A stretch of 64,000 nucleotides of DNA from Candidatus Chlorohelix allophototropha (lineage in GTDB: Bacteria; Chloroflexota; Chloroflexia; Chloroheliales; Chloroheliaceae), in assembly GCF_030389965.1 (NCBI RefSeq), contig NZ_CP128400.1, positions 806,001 to 870,000 of the forward strand. The letters run 5' to 3'. The position numbers and the translations under genes are program-made. The stretch's first letter is position 1, and every line of letters begins with the position of its first letter. Positions 19,778 through 61,860 of this stretch are shown piece by piece. A model generated the notes under the pieces. It did no database searches, was not told the origin of the DNA, and saw nothing but the letters and a program-made list of their open reading frames with translations.

Positions 19778-20119
19778 ATGTTCAAGCTTTTCGGATCAAA
19801 GACACTACCCTACGAAAATATTACCCCACAAGAAGTTGACCAGCGTATTAAAAACCAGAAGCCATTAATAATTGATGTGCGCGAAAATTACGAGTATGCT
19901 CAGGGACATATCAAAGGCAGCAAGCTAATACCTTTGAGCCAAATCAACAGCAAGATAAATGTAATCGGCGCTAAAGATCGTGAAATTATTGTGGTTTGCC
20001 GCAGTGGAAGCCGGAGTAGCCATGCCGCAAATTTGCTATGCAACCAAGGATTTACCAGAATAGGCAATATCAAAGGTGGCATAATCGGTTGGATGCGTGC
20101 CGGACTGCCTTTAGAATAA
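19778..20119 (+). CDS. Single-domain rhodanese (sulfurtransferase)
   Basis: A 113-residue rhodanese domain with no signal peptide. 'LIIDVRENYEYAQGHIKGS' is the conserved entry region. The catalytic loop 'CRSGSRS' starts at Cys74, which would carry the persulfide. The last element 'IKGGIIGWMRAGLPL' is typical of GlpE/PspE-like members. Start ATG at 19778 follows TATGGAGATAACATA. It precedes the two-component system and the DUF302/selenoglutaredoxin genes on the same strand, which suggests a sulfur/thiol redox locus, although a 146-base gap separates it from the regulator. Confidence 0.93.
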   Translation: MFKLFGSKTLPYENITPQEVDQRIKNQKPLIIDVRENYEYAQGHIKGSKLIPLSQINSKINVIGAKDREIIVVCRSGSRSSHAANLLCNQGFTRIGNIKGGIIGWMRAGLPLE

Positions 20120-20265: not shown

Positions 20266-20973
20266 ATGGCGGAAACTACCACACCGAAAATACTCATAAT
20301 AGAAGACGAAGAGAGCATCTGGAGCTTAGTAAAAGGCTATTTAGAACGAGAAGATTATAATGTTGCAGTAGCTACCGATGGTCAAAGCGGCTTGGAAACG
20401 GCACGGCGCATTAAACCCGACTTGATTGTGCTAGACTTAATGTTGCCCGGAATCGATGGTTTGGAAATTTGTCACTTGCTGCGGGCTGAATCGGACGTTT
20501 ATATTTTGATGCTTACTGCGCGTACCGAAGAAATAGATCGTATCATTGGTCTTACGATGGGTGCAGACGATTATGTAACCAAACCCTTCTCACCCCGTGA
20601 ACTGGTTGCACGAATTAAAGCCGCTCTAAGGCGGTATCGCCAAGACCCCTCTCCCGTTACATCCAATCGCAATATACTTGGAACGCTCTCTCTGGAAATC
20701 AGTTCCCGCAAAGTTTGGGTCAAGGATCAATTGCTGGATTTAACCCGAACTGAATTTGATTTACTGGCAACCCTTACTGAAATGCCCAGTAGGGTTTTTA
20801 GCCGGGAACAATTGCTCGAAGCAGTTTGGAGTCACGATTATTTCGGCGATGAACGGGTGGTAGATGTACACATCGGGCAACTACGAAAAAAAATAGAACT
20901 GGCAAGTGGGGGGCAACCCATAAAAACAGTATGGGGAGTGGGTTATCGTTTTGAGGCGGAGGCAGGAAAATGA
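20266..20973 (+). CDS. OmpR/PhoB-family response regulator
   Basis: A 235-residue two-domain regulator. The receiver (8-120) has 'IIEDEE', phospho-acceptor Asp57 in 'LIVLDLMLPG' and Lys in 'YVTKPFSPREL'. The winged-helix output domain (about 135-232) has 'LTRTEFDLLATL', 'VWSHDYFGDERVVDVHIGQLRKKI' in part, and 'TVWGVGYRF'. The last codons overlap the kinase start by ATGA. A short inverted repeat, AGTTAC (20220-20225) and GTAACT (20235-20240), stands just before the gene and could be its own site. Confidence 0.95.
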   Translation: MAETTTPKILIIEDEESIWSLVKGYLEREDYNVAVATDGQSGLETARRIKPDLIVLDLMLPGIDGLEICHLLRAESDVYILMLTARTEEIDRIIGLTMGADDYVTKPFSPRELVARIKAALRRYRQDPSPVTSNRNILGTLSLEISSRKVWVKDQLLDLTRTEFDLLATLTEMPSRVFSREQLLEAVWSHDYFGDERVVDVHIGQLRKKIELASGGQPIKTVWGVGYRFEAEAGK

Positions 20974-22067
20974 ATTCTCTCCGCACCCGCCTGCTTATTT
21001 CATATCTATCCATAATCGTGGTGGGGGTATTTACGCTGTTTATTGCCGCCAGTCTGATATCCAGCACCTTCTTCCAAGCAGATATTCGCAGCATCCTTGC
21101 CGAGAAGGGCAACAACGCTGCCAGTATTGAAAGCCTTAATAGCGCCTTCAACAACGGTGTCAGAAATTCCCTGATTATAGCCGCCTTCGCTTCCTTGATT
21201 ACTGCGTTAGTGATTTCGCTGGTAATGAGTAGCCGCCTTTCGCAACCGCTACGAGCGCTTGGAATTGCCGCTACCCGAATCGCGTCAGGAAAGTATAGTG
21301 AGCGAGTACGCGCTCCGGCGATCAAAGAAATGTCTGATTTGGCATATTGTTTTAACCAGATGGCAGAAACTCTGCAAGAGAACGAAAGCAGGCGAAGGGA
21401 ACTCATTGCCGATCTTGCTCATGAACTCCGCACACCGCTTACTGCCATTGAAGGACATATGGAAGGGTTAATTGACGGGGTGCTTGAACCTACCCCTGTT
21501 ACTTTTGGAATAGTGCAACGTGAAGCACGCCGCTTGCATCGCCTTTCCGAAGAATTAAGCGAATTGTCGCGGGTTGAATCTGGCATGCTAAAGCTTAATC
21601 TGGAAAAACAGTTACCCCTTGAGGTGCTTAACGAAGTCATCGCGAAGGTCAGTCCGCAGTTTGAATTTAAAGGAGTCAGGTTAGAAATAGACCCGGCAGC
21701 CGCTAAAGCCTCCGCAATTAAAGGAGATCGTGACCGGATTGAACAAGTTTTGATAAACTTGCTTTCCAACGCCTTGCGCTATACTGAAAAAGATGGTTAT
21801 GTCAAGTTACATGCTAACAATATGTCTGATGGAGTCGAATTCAAAGTAGAAGATAATGGCGGCGGAATTTCACAAGAACACTTAAAACATGTATTTGAAC
21901 GCTTTTACCGCGCCGATAAATCCCGCTCACGCGGGGCGAGTAGCGGCAGTGGTATTGGGCTAACTATTGCAAAATATCTGATTCAAGCGCAAGGTGGCGA
22001 CATCTGGATTGAAAGTGAACCGGGTAAAGGTACAACTGTACACTTCAGCCTTTTGCGCTGGCAATAA
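20970..22067 (+). CDS. Sensor histidine kinase (HAMP-HisKA-HATPase)
   Basis: The cognate kinase of the overlapping regulator. It has 365 residues with one N-terminal membrane helix, a short external segment of about 35 residues, a second helix ('LIIAAFASLITALVISLVM'), HAMP, HisKA with His in 'LIADLAHELRTPLTAIEGH', N box 'LINLLSNALRYTE', and G boxes 'DNGGGI' and 'GSGIGLTIAK'. The external part is too small for a classic ligand domain, so it may sense the membrane or another protein. ATGA overlap with the regulator indicates translational coupling. The DUF302 gene follows after 25 bases. Confidence 0.95.
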   Translation: MNSLRTRLLISYLSIIVVGVFTLFIAASLISSTFFQADIRSILAEKGNNAASIESLNSAFNNGVRNSLIIAAFASLITALVISLVMSSRLSQPLRALGIAATRIASGKYSERVRAPAIKEMSDLAYCFNQMAETLQENESRRRELIADLAHELRTPLTAIEGHMEGLIDGVLEPTPVTFGIVQREARRLHRLSEELSELSRVESGMLKLNLEKQLPLEVLNEVIAKVSPQFEFKGVRLEIDPAAAKASAIKGDRDRIEQVLINLLSNALRYTEKDGYVKLHANNMSDGVEFKVEDNGGGISQEHLKHVFERFYRADKSRSRGASSGSGIGLTIAKYLIQAQGGDIWIESEPGKGTTVHFSLLRWQ

Positions 22068-22092: not shown

Positions 22093-22491
22093 ATGCAAAA
22101 TAACGCTTACGGATTTGGCAAAAAAATTCCCTTACCCTATCTCGAAGCCATAGAACAAACCAAAGCAGCGCTTAAAGAGCAAGGCTTTGGGATATTAACT
22201 GAGATTGACATGAAAAAAACTCTTAAAGAAAAGCGGGGAGTTGATTTCCGACCCTATACAATTCTGGGCGCGTGTAACCCACCATTGGCGCACCAAGCGA
22301 TTACCGCCGAACTTGATGTTGGCTTATTACTGCCCTGCAATGTAATTGTGTACGAAGATGAGGGTGGCAGTGTGGTAAAAATAATGGATCCAGAAGCCAT
22401 CATGAAAATGTCAGATATTCCGGCGTTGGCAGATATGGCGAAAAATGCCAAAACTCTACTGCAAAAAGCGATAGATTCTTTACCTGATTAG
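22093..22491 (+). CDS. DUF302-domain protein
   Basis: A 132-residue soluble protein. 'FGILTEIDMKKTLKEKRGVD' and 'ILGACNPPLAHQAI', then 'DVGLLLPCNVIVYE', are the signature of DUF302. The Cys residues in 'GACNPP' and 'LLPCNV' are typical of the family, whose biochemical role is not established. It lies 25 bases behind a sensor kinase and 11 bases before the selenoglutaredoxin gene, so all are likely one operon. Its stop codon TAG is part of the ribosome binding site region (TTAGGAGG) for the next gene. Confidence 0.9.
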   Translation: MQNNAYGFGKKIPLPYLEAIEQTKAALKEQGFGILTEIDMKKTLKEKRGVDFRPYTILGACNPPLAHQAITAELDVGLLLPCNVIVYEDEGGSVVKIMDPEAIMKMSDIPALADMAKNAKTLLQKAIDSLPD

Positions 22492-22502
22492 GAGGCTTGA
22501 TT

Positions 22503-23042
22503 ATGGCAGATGCAATTGTCTATTCCACCAACACTTGACCGTACTGCCGAACAGTGAAAGAGTTTCTTTCACGCGAGCAGGTAAGTTATAGCGAGAAAAA
22601 CGTGGGGCTTGACCAAGCCGCCGCCCAAGAAATGGTAAATCGTAGTAAGCAAATGGGCGTTCCCGTCACAATAATCAATAACGAAGTGATTATTGGTTTT
22701 GACCAACCCGCGTTGCGTAAAGCCATTACTCGGTTGCGACAATCAAAGGGAAACAGCCTGAAACTAGGCGCACAGGTAGCGGATGCGGCAAAAGTATTAG
22801 AGTCGCTGGGCAAACCTGCCAGTAAAGGAGCGCTGGTGGGCAAAGTTCAGCTAGCTTCTTTGGCTGAAAAATCCGGGTTGCGCGAGGGCGACATCATTAC
22901 CGCAATGGAAGGTCAAGCTATAGAAGGGATCGAAGATTTAGCTGCCGCGCTTAAACGAATAGCCGCCGCTAACTTTAAGCAACCAACTATTACAGTGTTA
23001 CGCGAAGGTCACGAAAATATCATGTATCTAATGATAGAGTAA
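22503..23042 (+). CDS. Glutaredoxin-PDZ protein with selenocysteine (UPYC) active site, TGA recoded
   Basis: I place the start at ATG 22503, eight bases after AGGAGG. Codons 1-11 give 'MADAIVYSTNT', then TGA at 22536-22538, then 'PYCRTVKEFL'. The glutaredoxin active site CPYC therefore has its first Cys codon replaced by TGA, the expected place for selenocysteine (Sec12, Cys15). The fold continues normally: 'GVPVTIINNEVIIGF' holds the cis-Pro54 and the Gly-Phe contact. Residues about 110-178 form a PDZ domain ('SGLREGDIITAMEGQAIEG'). Total length is 179 residues. A GTG at 22554 would delete the active site and has no ribosome binding site. A SECIS-like hairpin follows the TGA. If recoding fails, only an 11-residue peptide results. 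Likely role: thiol/selenol redox protein with a protein-binding tail. Confidence 0.85.
22544..22580 (+). promoter_or_regulatory. Putative bacterial SECIS element
   Basis: A perfect 7-bp stem, GTGAAAG (22554-22560) with CTTTCAC (22566-22572), closes the loop AGTTT. Below it CTGC (22544-22547) and GCAG (22577-22580) can pair across a small internal loop. The apical loop begins 22 bases after the TGA and has G as its second base. The bacterial SECIS rules I know ask for a small apical loop about 16-37 bases downstream with G among its first two bases. All are met. SelB would bind here to deliver Sec-tRNA. Confidence 0.8.
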
Positions 23043-23358: not shown

Positions 23359-23820
23359 ATGAAACTTACATCTTTGAAACAACGTTTAGGACTTGGAATT
23401 GCATCCCTACTGTTAGCCGGTAGTGTTGCGCTGGGACCTGTGCAAGCATTTGCTGCCCCCACCGACAATACTATGCAAACTGTGGCAGTTCAAACCAGCC
23501 AGTTGCAAACCAGCAACGCCCCGAAGCCGGACGTTAGTAAAATCAAGGATAAGGTTGTTACCCGTCTAAACGAACGGCTGGATAAATTAAATACACGGAT
23601 TACTACGGTAACAGATAAACTTTCCAAGGCAACAACCGATGCTCAGAAAGACAAACTTCAGAAGTTACTGACCAAATTGCAGGATAATAAGCAGAAGCTT
23701 GAAGCCTTGCTGGTTAAAGTACAAAAAGGGGACATTACTCTCAAGGAATTGAGAACTCTTCTCCGGGAATATCGCCAGAGCCAACACCCCAAAGTAGGGC
23801 AAACACCAATAGCGGAATAA
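23359..23820 (+). CDS. Exported helical protein of unknown function (153 aa)
   Basis: The N-terminus is a clear Sec signal: basic start, hydrophobic core 'LGIASLLLAGSVALG', likely cleavage after 'VQAFAA'. The mature part is Lys/Leu/Thr-rich and predicted helical, with heptad-like 'LNERLDKLNTRITTVTDKL' and 'DKLQKLLTKLQDNKQKLEALL', so a short coiled coil or helical hairpin is likely. No catalytic motif is visible. The ribosome binding site GCGGAGGTC lies about eleven bases before ATG. It is monocistronic and ends at a strong shared terminator. It may be an envelope or extracellular structural protein; no function is assigned. Confidence 0.85.
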   Translation: MKLTSLKQRLGLGIASLLLAGSVALGPVQAFAAPTDNTMQTVAVQTSQLQTSNAPKPDVSKIKDKVVTRLNERLDKLNTRITTVTDKLSKATTDAQKDKLQKLLTKLQDNKQKLEALLVKVQKGDITLKELRTLLREYRQSQHPKVGQTPIAE

Positions 23821-54188: not shown

Positions 54189-54983
54189 TTATTCAGGAAT
54201 AGCTAATCTGAGTAACCGCGAACTTATATCGTTTAAAAGATTTTCAGACGATTTTTGAAAATAAAAATGATCGCCTCTAAATAAGCGCATGTTAAATGCA
54301 CCAACAGTTTGAAGCTGCCAAGGTGTAAGGGCTGATTCCTTTATTTCAGGGTCATCCATTCCACCGTACACCACAACCGGGCAGGCTAATGGTTTTCCGG
54401 GTTTATATTGGTAGTTTTCGGTCAGACTAAAATCAGCGCGGAGCATTGGCATAAGCAAATCAATTAACTCTTGGTTCTGGCGCATAGAATCGGGAATGGT
54501 ATTAAACCGTCTATTAAGCTCAAAGAGAAAAGATTCTTCAGAAAGCCCGGCTATTTTATACTCGTCAAGGGTAATTTGTGGGGCTGGATGGGATGAAACC
54601 ATTAGCAGCGCAAGCTGACTCTCACCGGATAATTCAAGACTACGCGCCAACTCATAAGCAATTAAGCCCCCCATGCTATGCCCAAACAGAGCAAAAGGAT
54701 ACGGCGTTAAATAGGGCTTTAAGGCTGACCTGAGCGCATAGACTAACTCCGATACATTGTCGATGGGAGTTTCGCTGATTCGTCCTTCCCGACCGGGCAA
54801 TTGCACCGGTAATAGCTCTACCCATTCCGGCAAACGGTTAGCCCATGTGCGGAAAACCGAAGCGCTACCCCCGGCATAATGGAAGCAAAACAGACGCAGC
54901 TTAACTTTCGGGTTAGGTTTGTAATACGCCAGCCAAGGGTTATGCGCTACATTTTCTTGATGTTGGTTCTTGAAGAGCCACAT
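54189..54983 (-). CDS. Type II thioesterase of the NRPS operon
   Basis: 264 residues of the GrsT/RifR thioesterase family. 'LFCFHYAGGSASVFRTW' opens the fold. The nucleophile is Ser103 in 'ALFGHSMGGLIAYELA', Asp lies in 'GGMDDPEIKESAL', and His in 'FRGDHFYFQ'. It removes misprimed acyl groups from carrier proteins, or may release the product, since the last NRPS protein has no thioesterase domain of its own. It starts four bases after the C-A-PCP gene. Confidence 0.95.
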   Translation of the reverse strand: MWLFKNQHQENVAHNPWLAYYKPNPKVKLRLFCFHYAGGSASVFRTWANRLPEWVELLPVQLPGREGRISETPIDNVSELVYALRSALKPYLTPYPFALFGHSMGGLIAYELARSLELSGESQLALLMVSSHPAPQITLDEYKIAGLSEESFLFELNRRFNTIPDSMRQNQELIDLLMPMLRADFSLTENYQYKPGKPLACPVVVYGGMDDPEIKESALTPWQLQTVGAFNMRLFRGDHFYFQKSSENLLNDISSRLLRLAIPE

Positions 54984-54987
54984 CTAT

Positions 54988-57900
54988 TTACACCTCATAC
55001 TCGGCTAGCCTTTTTTGCACCTCTTCATCCGGCATTTGTTCAAGCTGAGCCAGCAATAGTTCAAAATCGGCTTCAACAATAGAATTTGCGCCAAGCAAAT
55101 CTAAGTAAATCGCTAATGAGCTTATAGTGGGATGGTCAAAAATACTGCGTAAGGGTATCTCCATATGGTAATGTTCGCGTAGGTGTGCAATCAGTTGAGT
55201 AGCAAGCAGGGAATGTCCCCCTTGTTCAAAGAAATTGTCATTTATTCCCACCTCTTTCAGTCCCAGAATTTCAGCCCAATATTGAGCTATAGCCATCTCT
55301 GTCGGTGTAATCGGGGCATTGGGGACTTTATTTTCAGCAACAGATTCAGGCAAGTTGCTAGAAAGCCGCAAGCGGTCTAGTTTACCTCCCGGGGTGCGCG
55401 GTAGTGCGCTTATTATGCCAAATGCGCCGGGTATCATATAATCGGGTAGTATTTGTGCTAGATATTTACGCAATTCTTCCGCTTGAACGGTTTTTTCGGC
55501 ATTCGGTGCAACCCACGCCACCAGGTTTTTCCCGCCGTTATTACCATTTGCTACAATGACCGCACACTCGCGTACCGCCGGGTATCCGGCTAAAACCGCT
55601 TCAATCTCTCCCGGTTCTATCCGAAAGCCTCTTATTTTTACCTGTGAGTCTTTACGCCCCAAAAACTCGATTGTACCATCTTGGCGGTATCGGCATAAAT
55701 CTCCAGTTCGGTAAAGCCGTGAACCTGCCTGCTGACTGAAAGAATTGGGAATAAAGCGTTCGGCGGTTAAAGCGGGGCGGTTTATATAGCCTCGCGCCAG
55801 TCCTTCCCCGCCTAGATACAACTCACCCGCCACACCCGGTGGTACAGGTTCTAAGTTTCTATCCAGAATATAACCGCAAGAGTTTGCAATCGGTTTCCCA
55901 ATAGGAGGTTTTTTTGAATCGTCAGCAGGAATTAAGGCAAAGGTTGAGTAGGTAGTATCTTCGGTAGGTCCGTAAAGGTTATAGACTTTCTGAATACTAT
56001 TATTTGAATAGAGTTGTTGTACTAGTGCTGCCGATAAAGGCTCGCCCGCTAAATTTACGGTTCTTACCGATTCGGGTAACTTTCCTAGCCTCAATAATTC
56101 TTTTAGCACTGAAGGAACTGTATTTACCAGCGTTATGGTATTGGCAGTAGCCTCCTCAATTTCAGCCAGAGATAGAGCATTTTCTACCAAAACAACCGTA
56201 CCGCCTGTAATTAAAGGCAAGAAAAGCTCAAATACAGAAAGGTCAAAAGATAGGGAAGTGGAAGCCAAAAGCCCCTTTAGTTGCAAATCATCATATATTC
56301 GGGAAGCCCAATCCAGCAAGGCTATGGCGTTCCGATGCGTAATAGCCACACCCTTTGGTACTCCGGTTGAACCAGAGGTATAAAGTACGTAAGCTAGATT
56401 TTGTGAAGATACTTTTGAAGTGAGCGGAGGAATATCTTCCAATTCCACATCTGCAAGAACATTTCCAAGCTCAAGCACAAGGACAGAGGATGGAATAACG
56501 CATGTTGGTTGTCCTAACAACACCTCAACCCCACAATCCTCTATCATAAATGCTAAACGGTCTGCCGGATAATGCGGGTCGAGTGGTACATAAGCCACAC
56601 CCGCTTTTAAAATTCCTAACAACGCCGCTACCATCAGTGGAGTGCGTTCCAGAGACACACCTACTCGCGATTCAGTTTTGACCCCGACTTGCCGCAACAT
56701 TTGCGCTATCCGGTTTGCCTGTTGGTTCAACGTTTTATAGCTGATCGTTTGGTTATTGAAAAGAATAGCGGGGCTGTTTGGGGTTTTAGTCGCTTGCACT
56801 TCAAAGCACTGATGAATACAAGTGTCAACGGGAAAAGGTTGAAGGGTTGCATTCCAATCTTCTAAAATAATCCGGCGCATTTCGGGAGGGAACATAGCAA
56901 GTCGTGAAATCGGCTTATCAGGGTTAGCACAGATTTCTTTTAGAAGACACGAGAAATGTTTTAGCATGCTTTCAAGATTGGCTTTATCAAACAACCCTGA
57001 ACGGCTAATCAGGTTAGCCCGAAGCCTTCCCGCAACCTCGCCCATTTCCAAAGTCAGTTCAAGCTGAGCGGGCTTATAACCTACATCGAGCGTCTCTAAC
57101 ACAAGGCTATTGCTGTGTAATTTAACCCCTTCCAAATTCAACGCCATTGCGGTTAAGAAATCGCCGTCCTTGCCTCGAATTTTTTGCCAAGAAAACATTG
57201 CCTGAAATAGCGAAACTTTCGCGCCTAACCGTTCCGGTTGCAGCTTTTCCACCAACAAGGGGAAAGGATATTCGCGATGACTGAAAGCGCCTTGCGCCTG
57301 TTCTTTCACTTTTTCAAGCACGTTTAAGAAAGTATCACTACAGGATAGATAGGTACGCAAGGGCAAGGTGTTTACCAAATAACCAATCGTGTTGCGGTAA
57401 GCCCGCATATTACGGCTGGTAAAGGGGACAGCCACTACACAATCATTTTGCTCAAAATAGCGAAACAAAAGGATGTTATATGCCGCTAATACCGTTTGAA
57501 ATAGAGTGGTGTTATTTCTCCGACTCAGGTTTTTCAAGCTAGCGCTCAAAACTTCATCCAGCCAGAACGAGCAGTTAATACTGTTATCTGGTGAGCCACT
57601 CTCTTTTCGTATAAAATTTAGCGAAGGCAACTCACCTTCAAGCTGATTTTGCCAGTATTCCCATAATTTATCCCCATCTGCACCTTGCAGTAAATTATTT
57701 TGCCAATCGGTAAAAGCTGCATAGTCGGCAGAAGTTTTTTTACTGCTTAAAGCCTGCCCCAAAGATAACCCCTCATATAGCGCCCACAGTTCCCGAAACA
57801 AAAGCTCGAGTGAATGGAAATCTGAAACGATATGGTGCAGCACAAATAAAAAGATATGTTCTTCTGGATTGCTGGAGAATAATAGGCAACGCACCGGAAC

Positions 57901-58296
57901 GCCTTGAGTTAGTAGGAACGGGCGTATCGCTTCTACCCTGAGCCTTTCCTGAATCGCAAACTGACTCCAACCCGTAGTGGCTATTTGCTGAAAAATCGAT
58001 TCATGCCAGCCTGTATAGCGCATTGAAGGCTTACCATGATTCTCGCCGAAAACAGCCGTTAAAATCGGGTAACGTTCGGTCAAGATATTCAAAGCCTTAT
58101 AGAGAGTATTAACATCTAATAGACCATGAATCCGAAAAGCCCGCGCGATATTATAATCAGCGCTTTCCGGCTCTAACTGATGTAGAAACAGGAGAGATTT
58201 CTGCCCATACGAAAGAGGAAAATAGACGGTATCAGCCTTGCCTGTGACAGGAATGACACCGCCGGAGTTATTGGTTTCATCCGAAATAGTTGTCAT
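54988..58296 (-). CDS. Nonribosomal peptide synthetase module, C-A-PCP
   Basis: 1102 residues. The condensation domain (about 25-465) has 'LHHIVSDFHSLELLF', i.e. HHxxxD with Phe in place of the usual Gly. The adenylation domain (about 490-1000) has 'LYTSGSTGVPKGV', 'NLYGPTEDTTY', 'YRTGDLCRYRQDG' and the catalytic Lys in 'PRTPGGKLDR'. The carrier domain has its phosphopantetheine Ser in 'FFEQGGHSLLATQL'. Reading specificity positions by hand against GrsA gives D-L-F-N-N-A-L-T-Y-K, which I recall as an alanine-type code of cyanobacterial modules; this is an inference. No epimerase, thioesterase or reductase domain is attached. Confidence 0.95.
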   Translation of the reverse strand: MTTISDETNNSGGVIPVTGKADTVYFPLSYGQKSLLFLHQLEPESADYNIARAFRIHGLLDVNTLYKALNILTERYPILTAVFGENHGKPSMRYTGWHESIFQQIATTGWSQFAIQERLRVEAIRPFLLTQGVPVRCLLFSSNPEEHIFLFVLHHIVSDFHSLELLFRELWALYEGLSLGQALSSKKTSADYAAFTDWQNNLLQGADGDKLWEYWQNQLEGELPSLNFIRKESGSPDNSINCSFWLDEVLSASLKNLSRRNNTTLFQTVLAAYNILLFRYFEQNDCVVAVPFTSRNMRAYRNTIGYLVNTLPLRTYLSCSDTFLNVLEKVKEQAQGAFSHREYPFPLLVEKLQPERLGAKVSLFQAMFSWQKIRGKDGDFLTAMALNLEGVKLHSNSLVLETLDVGYKPAQLELTLEMGEVAGRLRANLISRSGLFDKANLESMLKHFSCLLKEICANPDKPISRLAMFPPEMRRIILEDWNATLQPFPVDTCIHQCFEVQATKTPNSPAILFNNQTISYKTLNQQANRIAQMLRQVGVKTESRVGVSLERTPLMVAALLGILKAGVAYVPLDPHYPADRLAFMIEDCGVEVLLGQPTCVIPSSVLVLELGNVLADVELEDIPPLTSKVSSQNLAYVLYTSGSTGVPKGVAITHRNAIALLDWASRIYDDLQLKGLLASTSLSFDLSVFELFLPLITGGTVVLVENALSLAEIEEATANTITLVNTVPSVLKELLRLGKLPESVRTVNLAGEPLSAALVQQLYSNNSIQKVYNLYGPTEDTTYSTFALIPADDSKKPPIGKPIANSCGYILDRNLEPVPPGVAGELYLGGEGLARGYINRPALTAERFIPNSFSQQAGSRLYRTGDLCRYRQDGTIEFLGRKDSQVKIRGFRIEPGEIEAVLAGYPAVRECAVIVANGNNGGKNLVAWVAPNAEKTVQAEELRKYLAQILPDYMIPGAFGIISALPRTPGGKLDRLRLSSNLPESVAENKVPNAPITPTEMAIAQYWAEILGLKEVGINDNFFEQGGHSLLATQLIAHLREHYHMEIPLRSIFDHPTISSLAIYLDLLGANSIVEADFELLLAQLEQMPDEEVQKRLAEYEV

Positions 58297-58310
58297 AAAA
58301 GATATGGCTG

Positions 58311-60161
58311 TTAACGCAATAACCGCAACCGCTCTACCAGATTATTTATAGCGGCAAGGCTGCTGAAGTTCTCGGCAATAAATTCATCATTAGGCACCTT
58401 TACCCCCGAATTATCCTCAAGAAAGGATACCAATCGTACAACCCCAATAGAATCCATCAAACCGCTTTCCAGTAGTTCGGTATCATCTTCCAGTAATATT
58501 TCCCCTGAATCACCCAGTATCTCGGTAAGAATATAACGCTTGAGGGTTTCTTTCAGGTCGCCGTTTTGCGGATGGCTTTGTTCGCTTATGCCCTGCTGTG
58601 CTGAAATTTGAAGGTCTTTCCGGCTCATTTTTCCGCTTCCGGTGCGCGGGAAATCGTCAACCACCCTAACTTTTTCAGGTACGGCATAGGTTGGCAAGGT
58701 GCGAGAAACATGCACCCTTAGCTCAGAAGAGGTTGGCTGGGTGTGCGGTTTGGGGATGATTGCCGCTTCTACCCAAGCGGTATCATCATCGGTGGAAACG
58801 GTGAAAGCGGCGGCTTCCTGCACCTGACTATGAGTAAGTAGCACCTGCTCTACCTCATCCAGATCGACCAGATTACCTCGCACTTTTACGCGCCTATCAC
58901 CTCGCCCGATTATATAGTAATTGCCGTCCGGCATTTGTTGTACCAAATCCCCGGTATGGTAGCAAAGCGCTTCAAGTTCCGGTGAGAAACGGTGCCTTAC
59001 CAAAGCTTTAGCATTGCGTTCGGGCAAATGCCAGTAACCCTCCATCAAACTGGGACCGCGTATGACCAGTTCGCCCGATTCACCTGCTTTCACCCGCTCA
59101 CCCTGTGGGTTAACTGCCATAACATCAACATGTGAGCAACCCTTACCGATAGGTATTAGCTCTTCATAATCGTCCGGTAGCGCCGGAACATCCCAGTGAA
59201 GCGCAATATGAGTCTCGGTGGTGCCGTACATATTGCAATAGCGCGGGTGCGGTACAAGTGACATCAGATGTTTAAGGTGTTTGGTAGGAAACCTTTCACC
59301 AGCAAACAAAATCCAGCGCAATGATTCGAGTTTTTGTGCATCAAGGTTGCCACGTTGCGCTAATTGCATTAGCACAGAAGGAACCGAACACCATACTGAA
59401 ATTTGCTCCCGTCCGGCAAGTTCAGCCAAATCAGACGGGAAACGTACAGTTTGCTCAGGCACTACCACCAACGTGCCGCCAACGCTAATACTGGCGTACA
59501 TTTCCAGCCAAGATAGGTCAAAGTGGTGGGATGTTACATTGCTAAAGCGGTCTTCGGGAGTAAAGCCGAATTTTTCTAAAGCCCACTCCACATTACTCAA
59601 CATACTGCGATGAGCATGCGCCGCGCCCTTGGGATTCCCGGTTGTACCCGAAGTATAGAAAATCAAACAAAGGTCTTGTTCATTTACCGAAACATCGGGC
59701 GCTGTAAGTACGCCTGATGTATGAATTTGTTGCCAACTGATGGTTTCAGCTTTCAGGTTAGCTACGTCCGACAGACCTATGATAAGCTTTATCCCATCGT
59801 ATTCTGCCAGCATTTGCTGTACCAGTGGGGCTTTAGAATCCTCGGTTATCAGGTAATGTATATCGCAATCTCGCAGAATAGCGGCTAGGCGCGCAGGAGG
59901 AGCGAAAGAGTCGAAAGGTACATATACGCCGCCTGCCTGCATAGCGCCATAGATAGAAGCGAGGCTATCAAAACTCCGATTCATGAAAACTGCCACCCGC
60001 TCTTGGCGTTTCAGACCGTTTTCAAACAAAATGCGGGCAATTGTGCCGGTGCGACCTACCATTTCACTATAGGACAGGCTTTGTCCGTTAAAGCGGAGCG
60101 CTTCTCTATCGGGCGAACGATTAGCCGATTGTAACAGGGCATGATTGAGGGAGAAAGCCAT
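58311..60161 (-). CDS. Loading A-PCP protein (amino-acid adenylation plus carrier)
   Basis: 616 residues. The adenylation domain (1-505) has 'FYTSGTTGNPKGAAHAHRS', 'MYGTTETHIALHW', 'CYHTGDLVQQMPDG' and Lys in 'FPRTGSGKMSRKDL'. The carrier domain (about 530-612) has Ser in 'ESGLMDSIGVVRLVSFLE', of the stand-alone PCP kind. Lack of a condensation domain marks it as the starter. Hand-read specificity positions give D-L-L-C-L-A-M-I-A-K, somewhat like the proline codes of PltF-type ligases as I remember them; this is weak. It lies 14 bases before the C-A-PCP gene. GGAG precedes its ATG. Confidence 0.93.
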   Translation of the reverse strand: MAFSLNHALLQSANRSPDREALRFNGQSLSYSEMVGRTGTIARILFENGLKRQERVAVFMNRSFDSLASIYGAMQAGGVYVPFDSFAPPARLAAILRDCDIHYLITEDSKAPLVQQMLAEYDGIKLIIGLSDVANLKAETISWQQIHTSGVLTAPDVSVNEQDLCLIFYTSGTTGNPKGAAHAHRSMLSNVEWALEKFGFTPEDRFSNVTSHHFDLSWLEMYASISVGGTLVVVPEQTVRFPSDLAELAGREQISVWCSVPSVLMQLAQRGNLDAQKLESLRWILFAGERFPTKHLKHLMSLVPHPRYCNMYGTTETHIALHWDVPALPDDYEELIPIGKGCSHVDVMAVNPQGERVKAGESGELVIRGPSLMEGYWHLPERNAKALVRHRFSPELEALCYHTGDLVQQMPDGNYYIIGRGDRRVKVRGNLVDLDEVEQVLLTHSQVQEAAAFTVSTDDDTAWVEAAIIPKPHTQPTSSELRVHVSRTLPTYAVPEKVRVVDDFPRTGSGKMSRKDLQISAQQGISEQSHPQNGDLKETLKRYILTEILGDSGEILLEDDTELLESGLMDSIGVVRLVSFLEDNSGVKVPNDEFIAENFSSLAAINNLVERLRLLR

Positions 60162-60181
60162 TATTTACTCCTTATGCTCAT

Positions 60182-61546
60182 TTACTCCGGTTCGAAGGTT
60201 TCAAGGGAAGGCATAGCTTTATAATGCAAGCTGTAGCCTCTGGTTGAAATATAGGTTAGCGCGGCGGTCAGGGCATCAATATCTTCATGAGTATTGTGGA
60301 TTCCCAAACTGGCGCGCACAATGCCGTAAGAGGCTAATCGGTCACCCCCCTTTATCTTTTCTTCTCGTTCGCTTTGCTCGGCTTCGGAAATGTTAAACCA
60401 ACGTCTTACCAACCGATGATTACAAATTGTACCTGAGCGTACCTCGATACCGTGCTCATGCTCAAGAATAGCAGCTACCAAAGAATGGTGAAGTTCTGGC
60501 AGATTAAAGGGAAAAGTACCGATTCGATTTTCTGATTTATATAATTCCGCCGGGATGTGCATTTTGAGACCGGGAACTTGTGCCAGCATAACCGCGGCAT
60601 AGTTTACCAATTCTTTCTCATGCCTAATCACATTATCCCAACCAGTATCCATAAGAACTTGGCAAGATGCGCCAAGCGCGACAATGCCGGTAGCATTCCA
60701 TGTTCCGGTCTGGTGTCTTTCCGAAGGTGGCGCCCAAATAATGTCCCGGTTACTTATCATATCAATCGAGCCGCCACCGGGATCGGGTGGGGTAGTATCC
60801 AGCAAATGGCGAGGCAGCGCCAGCACCCCGATTCCAAAAGGTGCATAAACTTTGTGGGCTGAAAAAGCTAACGCATCTATCCCATCCTCTAGCATGTCAA
60901 TGGGACGGTGGGGAGCTAGTTGGGCAGCATCTACAAAAAATAAAGCGCCGCAGCTATGCGCCAACGCGCTCATTCGGCGCAAATCAGGGATGTAGCCAGT
61001 CTGATTAGACGCGCCGCTTACCGAAATCAGCTTCAGCCGCTTGCCGTAGCGTTGCACCTTCTGTTCCAAATCGGCATAATCCAACGCCCCGTTATTAAAA
61101 GCGTTTATCTCAATCACTTCTGCGCTAGTGTTATAACGCCAAGGTAAATTATTAGAGGTATGTTCGATTTCGGACGTAAAGATAACCGAATCGCTTTCCA
61201 ACTTTAGCAAACGTGCCAGCATGTTTATAGCAGAACTGGTATTTTGGGTGAACAGTAGCGCTTGATCGGGCTGGCAATTTACAAAAGTGCGAATACGCGC
61301 AATGGCTTCTTCTACCTTGTCGCAAGTAATACGAGCGCGGGGACCTGCCCCTCGATGTAAAGCGCCATAAGTTTCTAGAAAGCTATTAACCGCCTCAAGG
61401 GTTTTTTGGAAAGGTGGGGTAGTGGCAGCATTATTGAGTTGAATAACCCTTGCTTGTTTCCCATTATGTAAAGTTGTATAAAGTTGCGAGCCGACTACTT
61501 GTGGCAAAACTGAGTCTATCGAAGGAGGGATAGTGCCATGATTCAT
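60182..61546 (-). CDS. Class V aminotransferase-fold PLP enzyme (cysteine desulfurase / CefD-like)
   Basis: About 454 residues. 'NNAATTPPFQKTLEAV' and 'HRGAGPRAR' are typical of the class. 'FTQNTSSAINMLARLL' and 'EHTSNNLPWR' contact PLP, 'FFVDAAQLAPH' has the cofactor Asp and Gln, and the Schiff-base Lys lies in 'AFSAHKVYAPFGIGVL'. I use ATG at 61546 after GGAG, not TTG five codons earlier. It is the first gene of the NRPS operon, 20 bases before the A-PCP gene. It may desulfurate, epimerise or transaminate a precursor; the reaction is not decided by sequence. Confidence 0.92.
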   Translation of the reverse strand: MNHGTIPPSIDSVLPQVVGSQLYTTLHNGKQARVIQLNNAATTPPFQKTLEAVNSFLETYGALHRGAGPRARITCDKVEEAIARIRTFVNCQPDQALLFTQNTSSAINMLARLLKLESDSVIFTSEIEHTSNNLPWRYNTSAEVIEINAFNNGALDYADLEQKVQRYGKRLKLISVSGASNQTGYIPDLRRMSALAHSCGALFFVDAAQLAPHRPIDMLEDGIDALAFSAHKVYAPFGIGVLALPRHLLDTTPPDPGGGSIDMISNRDIIWAPPSERHQTGTWNATGIVALGASCQVLMDTGWDNVIRHEKELVNYAAVMLAQVPGLKMHIPAELYKSENRIGTFPFNLPELHHSLVAAILEHEHGIEVRSGTICNHRLVRRWFNISEAEQSEREEKIKGGDRLASYGIVRASLGIHNTHEDIDALTAALTYISTRGYSLHYKAMPSLETFEPE

Positions 61547-61860
61547 CTTACTACTCCACAATTAATCTAAATGCGTTTGGGCAAAACTTTTTGCTTATGC
61601 AAAAATGAGGTGAAAATTACTACTAATAAGTGATTATAACCGGATGAAATGAATTTGACCATAGTAAATACTTTTTGACAACTTATTACCGGAAAGAAGA
61701 GTACAGTTGCAGTAGTTTCTTTTTTATGGCACTATGAAGCTGAAGGTTAGCATTCATTTTTCTGTTAGCCTTTTCTTCCTTATTCTCCCCTTTAAATTCT
61801 GTACGGTAAGAAGTGCAATTATTAAATTATATAATTACGATTGAGAGGTTCTACATTTAA

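Follow-up and report, generated by a model that had tools for sequence, protein, structure and literature searches.

The window, by which we mean the whole 64,000-nucleotide stretch analysed (positions 806001–870000 of contig C2 in a genome of five contigs and 6.09 Mb), carries a reading frame that opens with the ATG at 22503 and meets a single in-frame TGA before its TAA stop. By direct reading, the N-terminus is MADAIVYSTNT-(TGA)-PYCRTVKEFLSREQV; the TGA is followed by CCG TAC TGC, and the frame then stays open through to the TAA, 179 codons in all (Table 1). The TGA stands at the position of the nucleophilic first cysteine of a CPYC motif, so that the frame has what is expected of a bacterial selenoprotein gene, a UGA in frame at a redox-active position with intact coding sequence on both sides. 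With the TGA read as selenocysteine (Sec), Pfam scored the N-terminal part above the gathering cut-off for glutaredoxin (PF00462, 55.8 bits against 22.9) and the C-terminal part above those of three PDZ models (PF17820 (PDZ_6), PF00595 and PF13180 at 30.4, 30.2 and 28 bits against 27, 23.2 and 27, respectively). An earlier note on this DNA had described an AGGAGG and ATG opening a glutaredoxin-PDZ (Grx-PDZ) frame, with the TGA exactly at the first active-site cysteine, and both observations were borne out by our reading of the frame and by Pfam. It had also expected gene callers to shorten the gene to a start at 22554 and lose the active site; a mechanical ORF caller did so, returning a 162-residue product.

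Table 1. Features at and upstream of the Grx-PDZ locus, in window coordinates.
Feature	Position	Strand	Basis or remark
Single-domain rhodanese gene	19778–20119	+	two further Grx-PDZ loci also have rhodanese genes nearby
Response regulator and histidine kinase genes	20266–22067	+	not conserved neighbours
DUF302 protein gene, 12-nt gap to the Grx-PDZ gene	22093–22491	+	not found adjacent in relatives
Shine-Dalgarno sequence AGGAGG of the full-length gene	22490–22495	+	direct reading
Predicted Grx-PDZ selenoprotein gene (179 aa with TGA as Sec; stop TAA 23040–23042)	22503–23042	+	
Glutaredoxin domain PF00462, residues 5–63	22515–22691	+	Pfam, AlphaFold2, Foldseek
In-frame TGA, predicted Sec codon 12, first residue of UPYC	22536–22538	+	frame reading and homologues
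Predicted UPYC active site	22536–22547	+	second Cys (22545–22547) invariant across homologues
GTG start of the truncated 162-aa ORF, within the hairpin stem	22554–22556	+	mechanical ORF calling
SECIS-like hairpin GTGAAAG-AGTTT-CTTTCAC	22554–22572	+	folding, homologues, covariation
PDZ domain, HtrA/DegP type, residues about 87–171	22761–23015	+	Pfam, Foldseek

An AlphaFold2 model built with the family alignment had a pLDDT of 95.4 and two compact domains, whose relative placement is uncertain because the pTM was 0.68. In Foldseek searches with this model, the N-terminal half matched the dithiol form of cGrx1 from C. oremlandii (PDB 7c10; TM 0.92, 1.0 Å, 46% identity) and the C-terminal half paired with the PDZ domains of DegP/HtrA; each half thus combines a profile score over the gathering cut-off with the fold of its family. 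No single match spanning both domains was found among the library or PDB hits. Elsewhere in the window, the gene directly downstream (23359–23820) encodes a small protein that seems to have a signal peptide, with a helical, lysine-rich body and weak, sub-threshold Pfam matches, and the minus strand at 54189–61561 carries genes that, judged by eye, resemble those of nonribosomal peptide synthetases (condensation/adenylation, adenylation and thioesterase), beside a class V aminotransferase-like gene also named by eye from translations.

The Sec machinery, which the earlier note had left to be looked for, is present in the same genome: a tRNA-Sec (72.2 bits, anticodon TCA), SelA (565.8 bits), SelB (367.6 bits) and SelD (360.6 bits), all four scoring over the curated cut-offs of their families. 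The active-site loop of SelD has a TGA in frame. This SelD gene (G000:C1:719866-720813) appears to encode a selenoprotein itself and is accompanied by a hairpin (L018:1531-1575) with the same AGUUU loop as in the Grx-PDZ gene. UGA is an ordinary stop as well, ending 5 of the 32 ORFs of at least 250 residues within the window, and from these genes the genome is predicted to read UGA as Sec. A reassigned code or leaky termination, in which UGA would be read as an ordinary amino acid (Trp or Cys) and selenium would play no part, has precedents in the stop-codon reassignments of other lineages; however, both the terminating UGAs and the full Sec pathway speak against it, as do the like arrangement of SelD and, as described below, an exchange partner that is always Cys and a covarying SelB-type hairpin beside the TGA, and we consider it very improbable. 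Among the 19 genomes of the class with a TGA-form Grx-PDZ gene, 13 had a tRNA-Sec match, one of them weak (G088, 53.8 bits); SelA was found in five of the six others, the exception being a genome 64% complete. Beyond the class, tRNA-Sec was detected in 25 of the 30 genomes of the phylum whose match contained one in-frame TGA (the position of the TGA was read in all but 8 of the 30), and the remaining five are 57–89% complete. Since Sec machinery is common in the class overall (107 of 158 genomes), this co-occurrence is a necessary condition rather than a strong test.

The Grx-PDZ protein was found in 35 of the 158 genomes of the class and in 42 of 400 genomes sampled from the phylum. From these and a few named records we assembled, after removal of duplicates, 65 distinct homologues read at codon level, nearly all of them from Chloroflexota; plasmid records gave matches at the glutaredoxin level, none over 80% of the query, and the plasmid-record match in Acetoanaerobium was a Cys form. 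When the homologues were aligned at codon 12, as the earlier note had proposed, 44 had TGA and 21 had TGC or TGT; neither TAA, TAG nor any other residue occurred, and the second active-site cysteine was present in 65 of 65. Because codon 12 is only ever TGA or Cys and the second cysteine is invariant, the active site is not decayed, which answers an objection that the earlier note had raised against itself. The 11 codons upstream, the ribosome-binding site and a YxTxT motif were conserved too. On a 62-row tree the Sec/Cys label changed 12 times, at least 9 of these changes being forced by well-supported branches; Sec and Cys forms interleave, and TGA forms persist across many families. The earlier note had said that such a selenoprotein, in its operon, appears unusual; this was too strong a word, as most of the Grx-PDZ genes detected in the phylum are of the Sec form.

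These homologues bear on the possibility that the TGA is a nonsense mutation and that what remains is a pseudogene, or a truncated protein that starts at the GTG and lacks the active site. The 162-residue ORF is what such a history would leave, and damaged or split copies do exist, since a Cys paralogue in the same genome has a TAG between its glutaredoxin and PDZ parts. Yet a nonsense codon would not be expected as TGA 44 times at one codon and never as TAA or TAG, nor behind a conserved start region and ahead of an invariant second cysteine, nor in forms that occur across many families and have repeatedly switched with Cys; moreover, the GTG sits within a hairpin that is itself conserved. 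We regard a nonsense mutation as highly improbable. The paralogue, which is 56% identical and has the active site CPYC, lies on a 375-kb replicon (G000:C3:255365-255904, L055:9866-10405), and with an ATG just after its TAG it either codes for two separate proteins or is broken. We considered whether this TAG might be a Sec codon and rejected the idea, as the active site is CPYC and the TAG falls in the linker between the domains. Genome G088 (G088:C37, L064:1868-2095) has a putative single-domain Sec glutaredoxin whose active site is UVFC; it has the same hairpin but no PDZ domain.

A bacterial SECIS element is a hairpin that closely follows the UGA on its 3' side; its apical loop has a G close to the beginning and stands some 16–37 nt after the UGA. 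The window gene has a perfect 7-bp stem with the loop AGUUU, the stem lying 15 nt and the loop 22 nt from the TGA; the earlier note was right as to stem and loop and gave as the start of the hairpin the 22 bases that in fact lead to the loop. An Rfam scan of the window yielded no match at gathering thresholds, so the hairpin was judged by the bacterial SECIS rules and by covariation only. Taken by itself the window hairpin is moderately unusual (folding z of -2.6 over 55 nt, with 2 of 200 shuffles as good), and it is the restriction of its conservation to TGA-bearing homologues that places it beyond chance. At the same offset, at least six of the seven pairs could form in 42 of 44 TGA genes versus 4 of 21 Cys genes (Fisher's exact p = 5e-10, related sequences not being independent), and none of the 21 Cys genes reached seven. 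The hairpins of the TGA genes occur in two registers (loop AGUUU or AGUU), both with compensatory changes, and 95.4% and 98.9% of cells, respectively, were paired; 0 of 500 shuffles did as well on cells paired or on covariation, and all slid controls were far worse. Folding of the hairpin region relative to synonymous shuffles was stronger in TGA genes than in Cys genes (mean z of -1.48 and -0.40, Mann-Whitney p 4e-5), with values near zero in two downstream control regions. In addition, two third codon positions in the stretch downstream, 24 and 30, were fixed or nearly so in the TGA set only, and for this reason the conserved KEFLS peptide is in part a shadow of the RNA signal. Stem, loop distance and covariation thus agree with the earlier note that the hairpin fits the bacterial SECIS rules, and with its absence from most Cys genes we judge it, on the sequence evidence, to be a Sec-specific signal.

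The hairpin also counts against a sequencing or assembly error at 22536–22538. A single base change would restore CPYC with TGC or TGT as the true codon; however, the genome was published as closed (PMC10972752), 43 further distinct homologues, taken from independent assemblies, carry this TGA, and it is these TGA homologues that have the hairpin while most Cys forms lack it. A read error is untenable when dozens of genomes, each assembled independently, show this TGA, and we give it the lowest probability of all the alternatives. Nonsense mutation, read error and general recoding cannot explain the data.

We conclude, with a probability of roughly 0.93, that 22503–23042 encodes a selenoprotein, a cytoplasmic thiol-disulfide oxidoreductase of the YruB/Grx type with the active site Sec-Pro-Tyr-Cys and a fused HtrA-type PDZ domain. 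This is the UPYC selenoprotein that the earlier note proposed, now supported by the Sec machinery, by a codon 12 that is only TGA or Cys, and by the Sec-specific hairpin; as far as sequence can decide the matter, the case for hairpin-controlled insertion of Sec at codon 12 is close to conclusive. SelB bound to the hairpin would bring Sec-tRNA(Sec) to the UGA at codon 12, and with Sec inserted translation would run on into the glutaredoxin and PDZ domains, whereas without selenium the product would be a peptide of 11 residues only. Catalysis may be expected by analogy with the glutaredoxin family, in which the first active-site residue attacks and the second resolves: the selenolate of Sec12 would attack a client disulfide, selenenylsulfide or persulfide, Cys15 would resolve the intermediate, and a thiol or a donor of the thioredoxin-reductase type would reset the enzyme. 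The substrate may be a persulfide, a disulfide in a protein or an oxidised reductase (MsrA, for example), and the PDZ domain may bind the client, or tether the enzyme to a partner, via a C-terminal peptide.

The surroundings of the gene offer some indication of its role. The earlier note placed it in an operon with DUF302 and a two-component system; these genes are indeed present upstream, but the arrangement is not conserved in relatives, where neither is a neighbour of Grx-PDZ, and we rejected such an operon as a general feature. A blastp comparison of all neighbouring frames with the DUF302 protein returned the window's own copy only. DUF302 does appear to be functionally linked to glutaredoxins, because fusions of the two exist in two genomes of the family: a DUF302 domain joined to a CPYC glutaredoxin was confirmed by Pfam at L061 (G086:C560), and in the window's own genome G000:C3:264930-265160 looks similar by eye. 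In G086 the Grx-PDZ gene has a rhodanese gene about 1 kb and the DUF302-Grx fusion about 2 kb upstream. On the 375-kb replicon a rhodanese gene lies directly upstream of the Cys paralogue, and within about 10 kb of the paralogue are DsrE-like, TrxB-like, SQR-like, MBL-rhodanese and further rhodanese genes. The replicon region as a whole (L055:9484-19886) looks like a sulfur-handling island, with several rhodaneses, an MBL-rhodanese fusion and SQR-like and DsrE-like proteins, as well as a TrxB-like reductase and a TauE-like permease, both named by eye from sequence.

The recurring rhodanese genes and the DUF302-Grx fusions suggest that the protein acts on thiols or sulfane sulfur. By contrast, the Grx-PDZ neighbours in the large f14 family look to be of housekeeping type (TrmH-like methyltransferase, SRP54-like and GMP-synthase-like genes, named by eye), so the sulfane-sulfur link is suggestive for this lineage only; we infer both that link and the PDZ tether. 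There is about an even chance that the enzyme instead serves general glutathione- or thioredoxin-linked reduction of disulfides or of methionine sulfoxide reductase, as proposed for cGrx1, with no sulfane-sulfur link and with the PDZ domain used for oligomerisation or for binding a membrane partner. Such a role accords with cGrx1, the proposed reductant of a Sec-containing MsrA (PMC7642778), being nearest in both structure and sequence, and with the f14 neighbourhoods, but less well with the rhodanese, DsrE, SQR-like, MBL-rhodanese and DUF302-Grx genes that crowd the neighbourhoods in this genome and in G086. A bolder proposal, which we think unlikely though worth stating, is that Grx-PDZ forms a selenoenzyme family centred on Chloroflexota, which would bind clients through the PDZ domain, reduce their persulfides or polysulfide adducts and so link selenium to the handling of sulfane sulfur; in this phototroph it would work with rhodaneses, SQR-like enzymes and DUF302-Grx proteins.

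Sec-containing glutaredoxins are already established (PMC1794560, PMC13188914), and for that reason the gene is a good target for annotation but no surprise in principle. In the portion of a 2026 review that was searched, the table of prokaryotic selenoproteins has entries for Grx (UxxC) and, as a family apart, Trx7/PDZ (CxxU); a Grx-PDZ selenoprotein is absent from that table, and Chloroflexota go unmentioned in the same portion (PMC13188914). In the open literature searched, no paper brings Chloroflexi together with selenoprotein, glutaredoxin and PDZ; three papers contain the last three terms, among them the review, which refers to Trx7/PDZ. That the family is missing from the sources searched here is no proof of a first description. 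What the gene adds is a widespread two-domain selenoprotein family, found in many Chloroflexota, whose active site is beheaded by ordinary gene calling. Its Sec and Cys orthologues, which have switched at least nine times, form a natural series for asking what selects for selenium, and the hairpin-encoding KEFLS block, kept at the nucleotide level in Sec forms only, points to a recoding signal that constrains protein sequence.

The closest known protein is cGrx1 of Clostridium (Alkaliphilus) oremlandii OhILAs (PDB 7c10/7c12, UPHC), which is natively a selenoprotein and has the motif U(C)PxC (PMC7642778). Both proteins have Sec as the first residue of U-P-x-C and a Grx/YruB-type fold, and they share a TVKEFLS block after the active site, which in the window gene encodes the hairpin; cGrx1, however, is a single domain of 84 residues, whereas the window protein, which occurs in Chloroflexota, has a PDZ domain after its glutaredoxin part. 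The matching NCBIfam models all scored the window protein below their cut-offs. The best match for the glutaredoxin half was the YruB family (TIGR02196), which matched 61 of the 61 full-length members scanned, but this model is single-domain and Cys-based, and the window protein reached 80.5 bits against a curated cut-off of 88.55. Uxx-star (NF041212) is likewise Grx-like with Sec at the first active-site position, yet the window protein scored 52.9 bits against a cut-off of 66 and has UPxC with an invariant second cysteine; the subfamily motifs given for Uxx-star in the searched portion of the review are UxxT and GxGU (PMC13188914). The Trx7/PDZ (seleno)protein (NF041199) also joins a selenoprotein of thioredoxin fold to a PDZ domain, but its 390-position model has CxxU, and the window protein matched it through the PDZ part only, at 33.4 bits against a cut-off of 300. 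The Grx-PDZ architecture is independent of that family.
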